Assembly (NCBI RefSeq): GCF_021134715.1 | Contig: NC_060022.1 | Span: 5,275,001-5,339,000, forward strand | Direction of reading: 5' to 3' | DNA length: 64,000 nt | Source of the DNA: Daphnia pulex | Taxonomy: Eukaryota; Arthropoda; Branchiopoda; Diplostraca; Daphniidae | Part shown: positions 7,921 to 46,008 of the stretch, one piece after another | Layout of the letters: every line of letters starts with the position of its first letter | How positions within the stretch are numbered: position 1 is the stretch's first letter | Notes under the pieces: generated by a model | Seen by the model: the letters and a program-made list of their open reading frames with translations, nothing else | Databases searched by the model: none | Told to the model about the DNA's origin: nothing | Made by a program: the position numbers and the translations under genes

Positions 7921-10900
7921 TTAAAGTGACAATATTTCACTAGTGCTGGCTTGACCTAACGGGGGCCAGTCTTTTTCCAGAGATAACTCCAACTCCACTT
8001 TTTTGTACTTGTTCTTTGGTTCAGAATTTCGAGGATCGTTTGTAGGGCGCTGACTGGACTCATTTTCTGCAACCAAATTTTCAATAAAAAGCGCCACGGA
8101 TGTGTGCAATATTACTAGAAGTATTAGGCAACTGCGGAATAGGTACATGTTGTCGTCGTCATCAGTTCTTGTGGATCCAACAGGAAGCTCCTTCTCATCT
8201 CCTGAGTACCAGTGAAAAGGATTTACGTTGATCCCTATCACTTGGAAAAAGTCAGCCAGCGGGCCAATCGGAAGCAACGTAAGGACTAGAGAGAAGGCTG
8301 TCAGGACCATCATGGCGAACAAAAAGAGTTTGTTGGTATAAAAGGGCTGTCTATAGGGAGGCCCGTAGGAAAATGCTAACGCAAGAATAAGGTACTGAAA
8401 TGAACTGATCGAGAAAATGACGGTTACTTCCCAACAGGGAATAATAACTTCATCGCCCTCTGGACGCACAGGAGTGTACCATGGCTGCAGCATTAAGAGC
8501 AACAGTGCGCCTAGTTGAATTGCCGCTGTCAAAGCTATTTGCATGACGAGGGATAGCATATTGGAGCTGGTAAGTAGAGATCCTCTAGGCCGGTGAACCA
8601 CTAGATGCGGATAGGGCTCTGTGTGTCCCATCAGTACGGCCACTGTTGTCGTTATGAACAAATCATGGTACAAAAACATGTAGTCGCCCAAAGTTGTGCG
8701 TAGAGAGTAAAGAATCAGCACCGAGATGAACTGAATCAAGCTGTAGAGGGCCATGTACTTGAAGACCCCAAAACTAGTCACTAATGCGCAACGACCTTCA
8801 CGGATGATAGTTGGAACGCAGGAAATGTTTCCTGCTCTTGCAGTGAAGGGGGCGGCAACGGATGCCTCAGCATCCGATAATGAGATGCCTACGTGAGCCG
8901 CTTTGAGAGCACCACAATCATTAGCTCCGTCACCACAAAATCCAACGGCGTAGCCAAGTTCCTGAAACTCTTCAACCACCTGTCGTACAAGAACAATAAG
9001 AACCGGAATATAGTTACAAGATTCGCGAAAACAGAAACAGTCATGTGAAAAATTACCTTTGTTTTCTGATCAGGCGTCATCCGAGCTAAAATTGTTGCTC
9101 GCACAAGAATTCTTTGCAGTAATTGAGGGAAATGTTTACGAATTACGTCAAGGGTTTTGCCTCCCAGAGCCAGGTGTAATCGAGGAGTTAGATGTTTACT
9201 ATCTAATCCTCTTTCCGCGTCTGAAATAAGAGCTTGCCTGCGCCACATTCGCGCAATGTTTTCCAAGGGCTGGAAAACTGAGTCTGGCCATGAATCGGTG
9301 AACATGGCGTCCGACTCAGATGAAGACATCACTCCACTTTCTTCAATTTCCGTTTCGTACATTTCTGCCAATGAATATGTGATGGAAGCAGAGGCGGTGC
9401 CTTTCGGTGAACTAGCTGTGACAAGAATGACTTTCTCTCCCACAGGAAGCATATCGCAGTCTCTGCCTACGTTGATTGCTGTTAACAAGTTGTCACCTGG
9501 TTTTAAAAATCAAATCGTCAATAAAATGTATACAATTTAACAACTAACTGATTTTTACCAGTAACCATAACGCAGCGAATGTTAGCGTTCCGTAATTGTC
9601 GAATAACGGGAGTTGTTTCTGGCTTAAGAGTATTATGCATAACTAGAAGGCCAAGGAATTTCAGATTGCACTCCATGTGTTCCCGTTTCATGCGATGCAT
9701 TTGATGCCAAGTCAAACGGCGGTCGAGAACACGATGAGCCAGCGCAAGGACACGGAAGCCACGCATTGTGTACGATCTCAAAACTTTGGCAAAGTTATCA
9801 GGTACGGATGTACTTAAGCAGAGTGTACGAATCATTTCGGGTGAGCCTTTGCATAGCAGTTCCATGTTGGCGCTACCTAAGGTTCGGACAACTACCGACA
9901 TCCTCTGTAGGCTAGAGCTGAACGGGAACTGACGCACAATACCTACTGCATACGGAATCTGAAACAACAATAATTTCAGTCATGACGATCACTAAAATTT
10001 ATTCAAATTCTGTATACCTCAAATCCTGTTTCGGCAAAGTCAAAACCATGTACGCCAAGAAAAGTATCTCGCGTCACGGGTTTGACAACTAAGGGAGCCA
10101 TTACATCGTAACGAGTAATGTCTGCTCCTGGTTCTTCAAGGATCCATTGGGTTGATTTAAACATTTCCAGCTCCAAGGGATCACCAATCAATTGCCCTAA
10201 GAAAATCAAGAGAAACTTTCTTGAAACAAGTTTAGGGTTTTTAAATAAAAAATAAAAACCTTCAATTCGGGTAAGTGTGTGACATGCAGCTAAAGTTACT
10301 AAGACCGGGTCATCTTGTTTGAGTTGAAGGGCTGGATCGCGAACAAGATCATCAAAAACGTTTTCATCTTTCGACCGGGGTGCTACACCACAGAACTCTA
10401 AACCACCTTCTGTCAGCGTTCCTGTCTTAAATCAATTTGAAAAAAAAAAATACAACATCAATAAACGATCCTTTTTATATTAGATTGTGAGGTTTCTTAC
10501 TTTATCAAAACACATAAGCTTCAGTTTGCCGCATACGTTAATACGGGGTGGTGAAATGCAAAAGATTCCATTATGGCGCAGTCGTGATTGTGCATACACT
10601 GTCCCAACCGTCATAGCAGCTGGCATGGCTGGTGGTACGACTATGGTTAGCATATCACAAGCCCTGATGATAATTTCCCATATAGTGGCCTAGGGAAATC
10701 AAGGATAAATTAAACCAAATTCAAATAACTAAAGAAAATACTCTTTCTTACCCCTTTTGTTATATAAACGTATACGCAATACGTAATGCCACAAAGAGCC
10801 ACTCCAAATAATAGCAAGACAAATTTGAGCGAGTCCACGTAGAATTTGAAGCCAATAGGCTTCGGATATAGAATGGAGCGGACTAATTCACCCTTTGCAG

Positions 10901-12499
10901 TCGTGAATCCTGTCCTTATCACGACAGCCAAGACTTTATCTTGGCCATAGTATCGAGTTTGAAGGACTTGTGTTCCACAGAAAAGAGTGTGCCTTTTGTG
11001 AATGTCGGTACAGTAGGGCTCATCCAGATCCGGGACGGGTGTTTTCGTCTCGGGAGCACTTTCACCTAATGAAAAGAAAGCAATTTTAGAGGAATTTGTC
11101 CAAATAACAATAAGAAAATAAGTTTAATAACTGACCTGTTAAAACGCTCTCATTGACAATGCCTGTAATAGATTGGAATAATAACATTGAATAGAGTTAT
11201 ACATGATAATATGTTTAAAACATTTAATTACAAGTGCCAGCTACAAGAACGGCATCGCATGGCATCATGAATCCAGTTGGAGGAATGACGATGACATCTC
11301 CCGGAACCAATCGGATGGCATAAATATTTTCATAAACTGAAATAGAAATCTTTATGTCAGCGATACTTCAAAAATACGTAAATGTAAGGCAATACCTTCT
11401 CCACTGCGACAAACAGTAACCATGGAAGAAATGTGAGCTGCTGTCATATTCTTTAGTGTCTCACTTTGCTGGATAATTTTTTAAAAAAGAAATATAGTAC
11501 TTAATTACTAGATATCTAAACAACCAAATATTATGTTACCCTGCGGATTTCGTAAAGCGCAACGCCAACGGATATAATGGATACCACGAAAATGCATGCT
11601 GCGTAATAGATGTAATCATCGACCGTCCAAACTACGCAACTAAAAATCTCGAAAAGGTAGAAGGGATTGAGAACTTCGTCTATCAATAAACGCCAGTAGG
11701 ATTTGACGTCCACAGACATTGTATTGAAGCCGTGTAGCTGAAGCCTGCAATCAATGAAATCAATCAAAATTATTTCTAGCCTATTGGACAGAGGAATCAA
11801 ATATTTTATACTTTGCTTCTTGAACATGCACAGATTGCCCTTCAAATTTATGGAAATCACAAAGTTGAATGCCTTGTTCGATTCCGGTTAGCATTTGAAA
11901 TCGCTGGTATAAAAAAAGTAAAAAACCATCAATAAAAATAAAAAAATCAAAAGTATCAGATATTACCTGGTACTTTTTGCTCCACAGAAACTTGACATGT
12001 TGATGGATAAAATACCGGGAGTAGGGCATAGCATCCTCTTCAAACAATTTGCTTGTTTCAGAATCCTCCTCTTTATCTGAATCCTCGTTTGATAAAAGAG
12101 AATATTCATTGGGAAAATAATCACCAACATTTTCTTGGTGCACTTTCGCGATGTATGTTTGTCCATGAACATCCTGTAGAAAGAAAAATATTAAAAATTA
12201 TGCCTCTTTATAAAACTAAAGTTAAAACACAAAGTGCATGAAAACACATAACATACCTCTAACACCAATACTTGAGATTCATCTATTGGGCATCTAATGT
12301 ACTGCCAACGAATTCCAAAGACGTTGTGCCAATAAGTGAGAACATATGGAAGGCCCATGCATAATATTGCTAGACAGTGGAAGACGAATGTCTTGACATA
12401 GCTTCTAGTGTAGCCAACTGCTACAAGTTTCTCTTTACTGCCATCTCCTATCACAGTTGAATTGGGCTTGATATTTAAGTTAATGTAGCCCCCAACCAT
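7921..12499 (-). CDS. ATP13A3: P5B-type ATPase, ATP13A2/3-like polyamine transporter
   Basis: An endolysosomal P-type ATPase. Characterised P5B pumps export polyamines from late endosomes and lysosomes to the cytosol. Fourteen exons: 12257-12499, 11967-12173, 11812-11903, 11540-11744, 11396-11468, 11232-11336, 11136-11162, 10752-11065, 10501-10689, 10260-10425, 10018-10196, 9559-9958, 9057-9496, 7921-8979. The coding sum is 3,699 bases, or 1,232 residues, a usual length for the family. Visible marks: PGDVIVIPP and TGES (317-320) in the actuator domain, PPAMP (441-445) in M4, which is the P5B form of this motif, phosphorylated Asp484 in DKTGTLTE, KGSPE (637-641), TGDN (733-736), [14 protein letters not shown] (896-901), and a large last exon with six C-terminal membrane helices. 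The start is the first in-frame ATG after an in-frame TGA. An acceptor at 12528 suggests an upstream noncoding exon. Intron oddities are an AAG acceptor before 10425 and a GTTTTT donor at 10259. Whether it is an ATP13A2 or ATP13A3 counterpart cannot be settled, as arthropods often have one gene. Confidence 0.95.
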
Positions 12500-25983: not shown

Positions 25984-26757
25984 TCAATGCGCAGGTTGCG
26001 CATTATAGGGAACGCAGCTCTGATCGGTAATACTTAGCGGATTTCTCCTGTCCGTTAGCTGCTCAGAGCCGGGATACATGTAGAGATGAGAAGGATATGG
26101 ATGCGTGGCCGTGGGAGTCGGCGGGAGCAGCAAACTATTTCTAAGCTCATGAAACGAATGGACAGGAGGACCCGCAATTGCCGAATGAATGTGCTCATGA
26201 GAAATTTGCTCCTGCAATTCCCTCTGAAAATCGTTGAGAGGTACTGCAACCTTTTCCACCAAGACTTCTCTGGCTTTCCTGACATCGTGGGTAAGGGTTT
26301 GCAATTCGACAACAGACAAGTCGGGTTTTGACAGGGCATCTTTCAGTAATAACAGGTATCTTTTCAGGAGGGAACATTCAACGAGAATATTCTCGCCCAG
26401 CAGCAGCGAATACGGTTTACAGTCGGGCAGATTGGAAGCGAATGAAGACGGCGGCCCATTCAAACTCAACATCGCGGACGTCATAGAAGAATTGCTTTCA
26501 CGTTTGGCCGCAGACTGGCGTGACGGCCGAGAGACGAGCGACGCTTGCAAAGAAGAAGAAGACGACGACGTGGGCCCCGGATTGCCCACTGATTGTGCCA
26601 TTATGGAACTCGACGAGGCTCCATCAACGACGGTCGTCTTTTTGGAAGCTACGAGCTTTTCGTACACTTCCCTTTTCTTGTAACTACTTTCGCGATGCAG
26701 TTGAAAAGCGGACACGGGGTGCCCATCATCCACCGTCAATTCCTCATTTTCCGACAT
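25984..26757 (-). CDS. DM-less doublesex-like paralogue (dsx-C)
   Basis: 257 residues in a single uninterrupted coding exon, with an acceptor (tttatgcag) ending 16 bases upstream of the ATG. Residues 117-185 match the C-terminal helical domain of its two neighbours: LLLGEN, then an 11-residue insertion, then L..L..L..DV..A......V...LND aligned column by column with dsx-A (11 identities in 39 ungapped columns). The central part is Ser-rich linker (about 45-110), and the tail is Pro/His/Tyr rich as in dsx-A and dsx-B. There is no CxxC...H...H...C DM zinc module. At the same place is GHPVSAFQLHRE, which could be a decayed DM start (HPxxA kept, zinc Cys lost). It could form dimers with Dsx proteins without binding DNA, which is inference. 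It is third in the tandem cluster and on the same strand. Confidence 0.78.
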   Translation of the reverse strand: MSENEELTVDDGHPVSAFQLHRESSYKKREVYEKLVASKKTTVVDGASSSSIMAQSVGNPGPTSSSSSSLQASLVSRPSRQSAAKRESNSSMTSAMLSLNGPPSSFASNLPDCKPYSLLLGENILVECSLLKRYLLLLKDALSKPDLSVVELQTLTHDVRKAREVLVEKVAVPLNDFQRELQEQISHEHIHSAIAGPPVHSFHELRNSLLLPPTPTATHPYPSHLYMYPGSEQLTDRRNPLSITDQSCVPYNAQPAH

Positions 26758-27094
26758 TGTCGCCCAAATTCTTCTGCATAAACAAAATAATCACAATGCA
26801 ATAAGTCAACTGAAATCAGTTCAGAAAAGAGAGAAAAACGTCTAAAACAATTTGAGCCTATTTAAGAATGGAAAAAGCGTAATCACTCCAAGGAAGACGA
26901 GAGACGAACAATGGAAAGCTGATTGAAATTCTGTCCCAGTGTCGCAGCAGCAGCATGCGATTCTTCGAGTAGAGTTAATCTACTAGTACTAGTTCTCGTT
27001 GCAGCCAGAGAGAGAGAGACAGAGCCAAGGTTCGAAAAGTATTTCAAAAGCAACTTGAAAGTGGTCGGAAGCGAGCGCAACTTCTTCGACTTAC

Positions 27095-32760: not shown

Positions 32761-33711
32761 TTACTGGTTAACATACGGATAAACAGGAAGCGAAAGGTGA
32801 CGTGGGGGACAAATGACGGTGTCTCGGCTCGAGTGACCGTATAGTTGAGAGACATTAAAAGCATCCTCCGATGCCACTCTACTGGATTGTTCCGAAAGAA
32901 TTGCAAACTGGTTGGCAATGTACGACGGAACAGTGGCAGCAGCATTGGATTTAGCGGTCACATTACTTATCTGCTCTCGTTGCAATCTATCGATAAGATA
33001 TTGATAGATATCATTCAATTGAGTTGAGACTTCGTCTCGAATGATACAAATCGCGGTACAAACGTCATTATCGAGATAAGCCAAATGCTCCATGGTAAGT
33101 CTCGAGTCACGAAGGGAATTTACTAGCAGGGAGGCTCTCCTTCCTAATAGAAAACATTCTAGAGCCATGTTTTTCCCGAATTCTTCGGGCCCACTGCCGG
33201 GAGTGTAATGAGATGGTATGTATTGAGTCGGGTTAGGCTCTATTAATGGGCGCTCCACGTCTAAAGCTGATCTAGTCGAGTTTCTTCCCAAATCGGATGG
33301 CGAAGCAGACGAAGCGAAAGTCCTCGGCGTTGACGAACCGGAAGGAGTATTAGTCTGCATCGTGGGCCTATCAATTCCAAGTTCCCTGTCTTGTTGCTGG
33401 GCCCGTCTGGTGGCTACCTGAGATGCGTTAATTTTCTGTTTCTTGCGTGTCACCCTACACAAGTCGCAGCTGCAACGCCCAAACGGACAGTAACGCTTGT
33501 GTCCTTTCAGCGGGCTATTGATGCCGTGGTTCTTGCACAGGGCACAAGTGGGATTGCGACAGGATGCTCCTTTTCCTGCGCCGAATGAATTTGGACTACT
33601 TTTCAACTCGTCCTCATCCATATGCTCTACATCAATCGTCTCTGAGTGATCAAACTGGGTTTGCGAGGACGGAGATAGCATTTCAGAGGATTCTTCATCG
33701 CTGAAGGGCAT
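32761..33711 (-). CDS. dsx: Doublesex-type DM-domain transcription factor (dsx-A)
   Basis: 316 residues in one coding exon. The 5'UTR acceptor (gtttttttag) ends 24 bases before the ATG. The DM zinc module is complete: Cys56, Cys59, His62, His71, Cys75, Cys80, Cys82, Cys85 in CRNPTCALCKNHGINSPLKG and HKRYCPFGRCSCDLC, followed by the basic recognition helix (VTRKKQKINASQVATRRAQQQD). A Ser/Thr/Pro linker leads to a helical oligomerisation domain at about 185-245 (FLLGRRASLLVNSLRDSRLT, EVSTQLNDIYQYLI). Such nuclear proteins bind DNA as dimers and control sex-specific development. Daphnia carries two such tandem genes, Dsx1 (male determination) and Dsx2 (role unclear). The less conserved DM helix makes me favour Dsx2 here, with low certainty. 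Confidence 0.93.
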   Translation of the reverse strand: MPFSDEESSEMLSPSSQTQFDHSETIDVEHMDEDELKSSPNSFGAGKGASCRNPTCALCKNHGINSPLKGHKRYCPFGRCSCDLCRVTRKKQKINASQVATRRAQQQDRELGIDRPTMQTNTPSGSSTPRTFASSASPSDLGRNSTRSALDVERPLIEPNPTQYIPSHYTPGSGPEEFGKNMALECFLLGRRASLLVNSLRDSRLTMEHLAYLDNDVCTAICIIRDEVSTQLNDIYQYLIDRLQREQISNVTAKSNAAATVPSYIANQFAILSEQSSRVASEDAFNVSQLYGHSSRDTVICPPRHLSLPVYPYVNQ

Positions 33712-44988: not shown

Positions 44989-46008
44989 TCAGTTGGGATA
45001 CAAAGTTTGGTGTATGGGTGGATGAGGCCCGTTAATGACCGTCGCTCGGATTTGCGTTTGAAAAGTCGAAGGGATTTGGTAATGATGAATGGATCCCGGT
45101 CCGGGCACAGGATTTCCGTTCTGCAGTGGATCTTGACCATAAAACAGATTGGGATTAGGTGCAAAATTGACATTTCCGGAATGAATCTTGATTTGAATTT
45201 CATGGTGAATTTCATTCAGTTGAAATGAGACTCTTTCAATCTCGGCTTTGACGTCTTGAATGATCCGGAAAAGGAATCCTAGCATTTCAAATCCTAATCT
45301 CTTCTCGCATACAGAGTGTCGTAACAATGAAACATTCTGGCCCATGAGGATGCTCCCGAGCGACAATTGTTGCCCAAAGACTACGGGGCTCGATTGATGA
45401 CCTACGGCGGGAGTAGGTCGGCATGGATTATCGATTTTCACTTTTGGCGCTCTTTCTTCCCTGCCCGGCAGTGAGTGTTGATGCTGCTCGGAACGAGGCG
45501 GCCTCACTTTCCCACAATCGGGTGATGGCGACTGTTGGATCGACGACGAGGGTGTAGTAGTGATTGTTGATGTTGAAGAGCTGGAAATCCTTTCGAGTTG
45601 TTGAATAATTCCCTTTTTACGCAGTTCCTCATCCTGGGCTTGAGCCCGTCTCAGGGCCACTTGCTCCGCATTTATCTTTCGCTTTTTATTCGTGCCATAG
45701 CACAATTCACACATACATTGTCGCCATGGACAGTATCTTTTGTGCCCTTTGAGCGTGCTTATCGTTTGATGATTTTTGCAGAGGGCACATGTCGGGTGGC
45801 GCTGGGTGGCGCCGTTGCTGCTGTCGTTAATCGCGTCGACTCCTTCATTACGGATCCTGAAACTCGAAGTCGAAACGCTGCTCGATCCTTCTTCATCACC
45901 GTCCATGATAATCATATTAGAACCGTGGTGGTGGTGGTGGTGGTGCTCTTTAGCCGAAATGGGCGAGGGTGCCCCCACGGACAACTCTTCTGCGTCGCTG
46001 TCTGACAT
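44989..46008 (-). CDS. dsx: Doublesex-type DM-domain transcription factor (dsx-B)
   Basis: 339 residues in one coding exon. The 5'UTR acceptor (attattag) ends 20 bases upstream of the ATG at 46008. An acidic N terminus and a seven-His run (22-28) precede the complete DM zinc module: Cys74, Cys77, His80, His89, Cys93, Cys98, Cys100, Cys103 (HPTCALCKNHQTISTLKGHK, RYCPWRQCMCELC), then the recognition helix NKKRKINAEQVALRRAQAQD, close to insect Dsx. Ser/Thr/Pro-rich linker, then a helical oligomerisation domain at about 217-275 (LGSILMGQNVSLLRHSVCEK, IERVSFQLNEIHHEI) and a Pro/His tail ending LYPN. Expected to be a nuclear regulator of sexual development. The more canonical DM helix and the large upstream regulatory region make me favour Dsx1, the male determinant of Daphnia, but this assignment is inference. 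Confidence 0.94.
   Translation of the reverse strand: MSDSDAEELSVGAPSPISAKEHHHHHHHGSNMIIMDGDEEGSSSVSTSSFRIRNEGVDAINDSSNGATQRHPTCALCKNHQTISTLKGHKRYCPWRQCMCELCYGTNKKRKINAEQVALRRAQAQDEELRKKGIIQQLERISSSSTSTITTTPSSSIQQSPSPDCGKVRPPRSEQHQHSLPGREERAPKVKIDNPCRPTPAVGHQSSPVVFGQQLSLGSILMGQNVSLLRHSVCEKRLGFEMLGFLFRIIQDVKAEIERVSFQLNEIHHEIQIKIHSGNVNFAPNPNLFYGQDPLQNGNPVPGPGSIHHYQIPSTFQTQIRATVINGPHPPIHQTLYPN
45925..45945. repeat. dsx: coding GTG/CAC triplet run
   Basis: Seven triplets that encode the seven-His tract of dsx-B. Probably length-variable between strains. Confidence 0.85.

Follow-up and report, generated by a model that had tools for sequence, protein, structure and literature searches.

The coding frame of 257 codons at 25984-26757 on the minus strand of the analyzed window of the Daphnia pulex genome constitutes a third doublesex paralog, here called T3, located in tandem with dsx1 and dsx2. 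Judged from its sequence, T3 is genuine both as a gene and as a dsx paralog: it has lost the zinc-binding module of the DM domain, probably retains a segment corresponding to the DM recognition helix, and carries a C-terminal domain of the Dsx oligomerization type. The original prediction of a tandem, dsx-derived paralog without a zinc module is thus borne out, and the gene is also conserved in related species. As to its function, we give somewhat less than even chances to T3 being a non-canonical Dsx partner of the male side, which would lower or redirect Dsx activity and whose helix segment has been kept. The window is the whole analyzed stretch of 64,000 nucleotides (C6:5275001-5339000), and the genome searches covered 133 Mb in 13 contigs.

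Genomic arrangement of the dsx cluster

All three genes lie on the minus strand, as had been predicted, and follow each other in the direction of transcription as dsx1 (46008-44989), dsx2 (33711-32761), and T3 (26757-25984). Their coding frames are separated by 11,277 bases (dsx1 to dsx2) and 6,003 bases (dsx2 to T3). The frame formerly labeled dsx-A is called dsx2 because it is related to sequence P0021, the named doublesex2 of Ceriodaphnia dubia, while the former dsx-B is called dsx1 by elimination and because of the nonpolar residues at its interface positions (see below). Features of T3 and its neighbors are listed in Table 1.

Table 1. Features of T3 and the neighboring dsx genes, in coordinates of the window
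Feature	Position	Strand	Basis
T3 coding frame (257 aa)	25984..26757, stop codon included	-	C-terminal homology; relatives
dsx2 coding frame (former dsx-A)	32761..33711	-	Pfam DM domain; relation to P0021
dsx1 coding frame (former dsx-B)	44989..46008	-	Pfam DM domain; elimination and nonpolar interface residues
Acidic start, residues 1-12, MSENEELTVDDG, resembling the Dsx1 start	26722..26757	-	Alignments, by eye
SYKKREVYEKLVASKK, residues 25-40, likely relic of the DM recognition helix	26638..26685	-	Profile placement; alignments
Variable linker, residues 41-111, probably disordered	26425..26637	-	Low confidence in the model
Oligomerization-type domain, residues 112-190	26188..26424	-	BLASTP; profiles; fly alignment; model
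PYPSxLYxYP motif, residues 219-229	26071..26103	-	Highly conserved; 8 of 11 columns invariant (16 sequences)
Conserved C-terminus, residues 250-257, ending in AQPAH (AQSAH in P0008)	25987..26010	-	4 of 8 columns invariant
Candidate 3' splice acceptor AG of T3	26774..26775	-	16 bases before the ATG; sequence only
Candidate polyadenylation signal AATAAA	25834..25839	-	Sequence only

The predicted single coding exon of T3 agrees with its start, Met-Ser, which is kept in all 16 members of the family. The proposal that the three genes have in common a 5'UTR intron close to the ATG is less firm. Candidate acceptor AGs are present 16, 24, and 20 bases upstream of the ATGs of T3, dsx2, and dsx1, respectively; the position in dsx1 is ambiguous, and since AGs with better pyrimidine tracts occur 88 and 91 bases before its ATG, a shared intron position is only a possibility. 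No promoter DNA common to the three genes was detected under E 0.09 in the 3 kb upstream of each, and nothing in the window reached the Rfam gathering score. The nearest recognized gene downstream of the cluster encodes a P5-type cation-transporting ATPase, with exons at 7921-12499 on the minus strand, among which Pfam identifies P5-ATPase at 12191-12499 and, weakly, the C-terminal part of an ATPase at 7921-8754; the nearest ATPase frame found lies 13,484 bases beyond T3.

The C-terminal domain and pairing with Dsx

The C-terminal alignment with dsx-A on which the original prediction was built (39 columns with 11 identities, including the terminal LND) proves to be part of a stronger relationship. 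BLASTP aligns T3 to Dsx2 without gaps at 24 identities in 76, LND included (two-sequence E 2e-9); the alignment to Dsx1 needs one gap and has 15 identities in 76 (E 0.004). A profile-profile comparison of 16 T3 with 23 Dsx sequences, the check envisaged for the Dsx dimerization domain, reaches E 8.5e-18 over 80 columns; with Dsx2 alone, the local profile alignment covers the oligomerization domain only (77 columns, E 1.7e-14). By sequence, T3 therefore possesses the C-terminal oligomerization domain. A structure predicted from alignment A1, which holds 12 of the sequences rather than all 16, forms a two-helix hairpin in this domain (helices 116-143 and 149-192). For the UBA-like fold of the arthropod Dsx domain, structure matches to the T3 model are generic only, with no Dsx chain, fly Dsx included, among the 50 matches listed. 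Searches for solved relatives by sequence gave no convincing hit (SAV1875, E 0.71; filamin-B, E 0.018), nor did Pfam searches across the T3 family (best E 0.089).

According to Toyota et al. (2013; PMC3637828), aspartate takes the place of a nonpolar residue at two of three interface positions in Dsx2, and such changes lead these authors to infer that Dsx2 is unable to dimerize. Two of the three positions were placed in T3 by inference from their description and the alignment with the fly domain. The first is occupied by Thr in 13, Ala in two, and Ile in one of the 16 T3 sequences, by Asp in 13, Asn in two, and Glu in three of the 18 Dsx2 sequences, by Phe or Glu in the two Dsx1 sequences (Glu in P0035), and by Tyr in the fly protein. 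The second is acidic in every T3 (14 Asp, 2 Glu) and every Dsx2 sequence (10 Asp, 8 Glu) and nonpolar in both Dsx1 sequences (Ile, Val) and in fly Dsx (Ile). On these residue counts, T3 is Dsx2-like at one interface position and unlike both Dsx1 and Dsx2 at the other. As far as such substitutions can be read, pairing of T3 with Dsx1 is uncertain, and the acid common to T3 and Dsx2 may weaken canonical pairing.

The main alternative, conceivable albeit doubtful, is that T3 no longer pairs with Dsx1 or Dsx2 at all and, associated with itself or with other proteins, serves as a male-expressed adaptor acting via its tail (PYPSxLYxYP, AQPAH). Such a role would accord with an acid in all 16 T3 sequences where Dsx1 and fly Dsx are nonpolar, with a predicted hairpin that finds generic structure matches only, and with the two conserved blocks of the tail, in which 8 of 11 columns and 4 of 8 columns, respectively, are invariant and for which Dsx2 has no clear counterpart by eye. 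However, Dsx2 is acidic at the same position and its domain is still conserved, the acid is compatible with pairing of two similar domains, and the core of the domain is common to T3 and Dsx2.

The N-terminal region

Pfam recognizes the DM domain in dsx1 and dsx2, and in neither T3 nor the other 15 members of its family (0 of 16); a complete PF00751 domain is thus absent. The zinc-binding cysteines are likewise missing: 13 of the 16 sequences have no cysteine before the oligomerization domain, and P0009, P0010, and P0011 have one each. The earlier description of the protein as DM-domain-less is accurate for the zinc module and the Pfam domain, but it goes too far for the rest, as a segment resembling the recognition helix probably persists and belongs to the best conserved parts of the protein.

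The resemblance of this segment (SYKKREVYEKLVASKK) to the helix was first noticed by eye, after which every possible placement was scored. Of all positions in the Dsx profile, the segment fits best on the DM recognition helix, in register. On the Dsx1 profile, which consists of only four sequences (window, P0035, P0036, and P0037; three of them assigned to Dsx1 in this analysis), this placement has the top score of all ungapped 16-column placements of the N-terminal part, and an equally good one occurred in none of 5000 column shuffles and three of 5000 block shuffles. The corresponding numbers, again per 5000, are 26 and 61 for the Dsx2 profile alone and 2 and 15 for the joint Dsx1 and Dsx2 profile, and an earlier run with 300 shuffles agrees. 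In an unconstrained joint alignment of 38 sequences (P0020 was left out due to its different C-terminus), the T3 helix falls on the Dsx helix; P0029, which is short and has no DM match, was left out of alignment A3. The best local profile alignment with Dsx1 (147 columns, E 3.6e-9) starts, by its ranges, at the helix and finishes where the oligomerization domain does, while that with Dsx2 leaves the helix out. Both forced global profile alignments superimpose the two helices, although per-column confidence is low in this part. An hhalign comparison restricted to the N-terminal part has its top match on the helix each time, with E 0.011 for Dsx1, 0.23 for Dsx2, and 0.12 for both.

Scored against individual proteins, the segment reaches 24 with Dsx1 and 22 with Dsx2 of the genome, 33 with the Dsx1-like P0035, and 14 to 25 with other Dsx relatives; the remaining three DM exons in this genome yield 9, 5, and 10, the exon scoring 5 being an unfair control that ends inside the helix. 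Identities with the window's own Dsx proteins amount to four or five in 16. In the model, the segment lies inside a helix spanning residues 17-38, predicted at low confidence. The putative recognition helix of T3 is hence recognized by similarity, weak for the N-terminal part in isolation, and we regard descent of this segment from a DM domain as quite probable.

An independent origin of the basic helix (e.g., as a nuclear-import signal), with T3 derived from a duplicate that had lost the whole DM domain, appears improbable. Basic helices are common, the hhalign values for the N-terminal part alone are weak, identities with the window Dsx proteins are few, and scores go down to 14 for some of the Dsx2 relatives, all of which would suit such an origin. 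Nevertheless, no other position in the Dsx profile fits the segment as well, order and register are right, the joint and profile alignments concur, Dsx proteins score above the other DM exons of the genome, and the segment shares 8 of 16 residues with P0035. Of the DM helices compared, that of P0035 (TNKKREVNAKQVALRR) comes nearest to the T3 motif; this Dsx1-like sequence (source: ena) also ends in the three residues PAH, as T3 does.

We reject, as very improbable, the possibility that the T3 frame is spliced to a DM exon in a larger transcript. The stretch from the candidate acceptor to the ATG contains no in-frame stop, yet the start Met-Ser is invariant, the three longer N-termini in the family are dissimilar upstream of it, and the genome search disclosed no unassigned DM exon: at least five such exons were found, namely those of dsx2 and dsx1 and three on other contigs. 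A DM exon spliced to this frame had been named as a finding that would overturn the original prediction; no spare one was found on the contig of T3.

Conservation and descent

Searches among 5.8 billion proteins returned 11 relatives of T3, and 15 in all with a profile, at 40-99% identity to the window protein; the proposed check for orthologs in related species thus shows the gene to be conserved. T3 is 99% identical to a cluster named by one source "uncharacterized protein LOC124314999 [Daphnia pulicaria]", and relatives are entered as proteins of D. pulicaria and D. sinensis. Across the 16 sequences, 55 columns are invariant, and the majority fraction is 0.86 in the helix, 0.78 in the oligomerization domain, and 0.63 in the linker. 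Three members (P0007, P0010, and P0012) have longer N-termini that, by eye, are unlike each other upstream of Met-Ser. The acidic start of T3 may be compared with those of Dsx1, MSDSDAEELSV in the window protein and MSESDGELSV in P0035.

In an unrooted tree of the oligomerization domain, T3 (16 members), Dsx2 (18 members), and Dsx1 (two members) form three clades with support of 100, 90, and 99, respectively. Since they form separate groups, the split between the T3, Dsx2, and Dsx1 copies most likely predates that between the species. The Dsx1-like P0036 and P0037, whose listed sequences have no oligomerization domain and may be spliced, truncated, or misread, are not part of this tree. The longest contigs of P0006 and the dsx2 relative P0018 are equally long (both 11088), as are those of P0008 and the dsx2 relative P0022 (both 40572), which suggests linkage of T3 and dsx2 in two other assemblies.

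Beyond T3, a search of the genome for a second gene of its kind matched dsx2 weakly (E 0.004) and a stop-broken stretch on contig C9. The latter (G000:C9:2122784-2123047) weakly matches T3 residues 46-139 with four internal stops (E 0.067), probably by chance. T3 as a decaying pseudogene, an idea that the loss of the zinc module could inspire, is hardly credible and is rejected in view of a frame open in 16 sequences down to 40% identity, the invariant columns, a GC3 (0.53) near that of the neighbors (0.46 and 0.49), and the protein entries of D. pulicaria and D. sinensis.

Expression in Daphnia magna

Nong et al. (2020; PMC7458346) describe a D. magna gene located just downstream of dsx2, Dapma7bEVm007306, as uncharacterized and male-biased. 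The legend also writes Dapma7bEVm007396, placed between Dsx2 and Dapma7bEVm007899, which is taken as the same gene. In that study, sex bias was confirmed in eight of eight genes tested. Judging by its position only, this gene is probably the T3 ortholog, and T3 is thus probably active in males. A second cluster of three neighboring uncharacterized male-biased genes was reported on another D. magna scaffold, scaffold00687 (PMC7458346).

The male bias of this positional counterpart in D. magna favors a male-side modulator over a female-side brake; an inhibitor acting in females fits this bias poorly. The earlier statement that no such gene had been described stands in one respect only: the gene is annotated as uncharacterized and probably appears in PMC7458346, but it is not named as a dsx paralog in the available text of that article. 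In the open-license literature, the D. magna identifier was found in PMC7458346 only, and no paper among the matches listed names a third Daphnia dsx or identifies T3 as a dsx paralog. No open-license paper was found that treats the doublesex zinc module and the recognition helix together.

Comparison with known systems

The closest counterparts of T3 are its neighbors. Daphnia Dsx2 (PMC3637828) is likewise encoded by a single coding exon on the same strand next to T3, has the oligomerization domain most like that of T3 (24 of 76 identities), and carries an acid where the T3 domain has one. Its DM domain, however, is complete, whereas the cysteines are missing from T3, which ends in a different tail. 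Daphnia Dsx1, which is required for male traits in D. magna (PMC9043111; PMC3637828), resembles T3 in its start (MSxS..EELSV) and helix (TNKKRKINAEQVALRR), and one local profile alignment runs from the helix to the oligomerization domain; unlike T3, it is complete, with its zinc module.

Comparable cases are known from other members of the family. A DM-less isoform is reported for Daphnia Dmrt99B (Kato 2008, via PMC6604209), which is, like T3, a Dmrt-gene product without a DM domain, but is an isoform of another Dmrt gene of non-Dsx type rather than a separate conserved gene. The iDMY of the lobster Sagmariasus verreauxi, a Dmrt duplicate, has been proposed to act as a dominant negative on its paralog (PMC9690683); this suppression is itself a proposal, and iDMY is a sex-linked duplicate of iDmrt1, while T3, devoid of a zinc module, is a neighbor of dsx1 and dsx2. 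In the butterfly Zerene cesonia, dsxB is, like T3, a dsx duplicate minus one domain, yet the loss is the reverse, the DM domain being kept and the second oligomerization domain gone (PMC8557438).

Id proteins are family members that pair without DNA binding. They belong to an unrelated family and allow a functional comparison only, with pairing of T3 being a proposal. T3 is set apart from all these systems in that it is a conserved gene in its own right, located next to dsx1 and dsx2, and has lost the zinc module but kept the pairing domain.

Proposed role and implications

T3 as a non-canonical, male-side Dsx partner could have evolved and could act as follows. A tandem duplication in the water-flea lineage would have given rise to T3, which then lost the DM zinc-binding module while keeping the oligomerization domain, a conserved tail of its own and, likely, the basic recognition-helix segment. 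In males, T3 would join Dsx2 and/or Dsx1 through the oligomerization domain. Complexes containing T3 would have a single working DNA-binding arm, by which Dsx activity would be lowered or redirected, and the retained helix segment could act as a nuclear-import signal or provide weak DNA contact. T3 would then constitute a self-limiting modulator of the male side instead of a female-side brake. A bolder form of this reading, which we consider rather unlikely, is that T3, as a conserved, male-expressed half-Dsx with the DNA-reading helix and the pairing domain retained, makes Dsx complexes read DNA one-armed or with altered specificity. If true, T3 would damp environmental male determination in a dosage-sensitive manner, and graded male-female intermediates could be explained in this way.

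Among the models of environmental sex determination, Daphnia holds a leading place, and two dsx genes are described as making up its switch. The third member next to them, conserved and probably male-biased, has so far been listed as uncharacterized. T3 is a natural case in which the DM zinc module was seemingly lost while a helix-like part stayed under constraint. It is also a candidate modulator that can be addressed with the D. magna Dsx1 mutants and RNAi already in use, and it may tune how Daphnia turn male.
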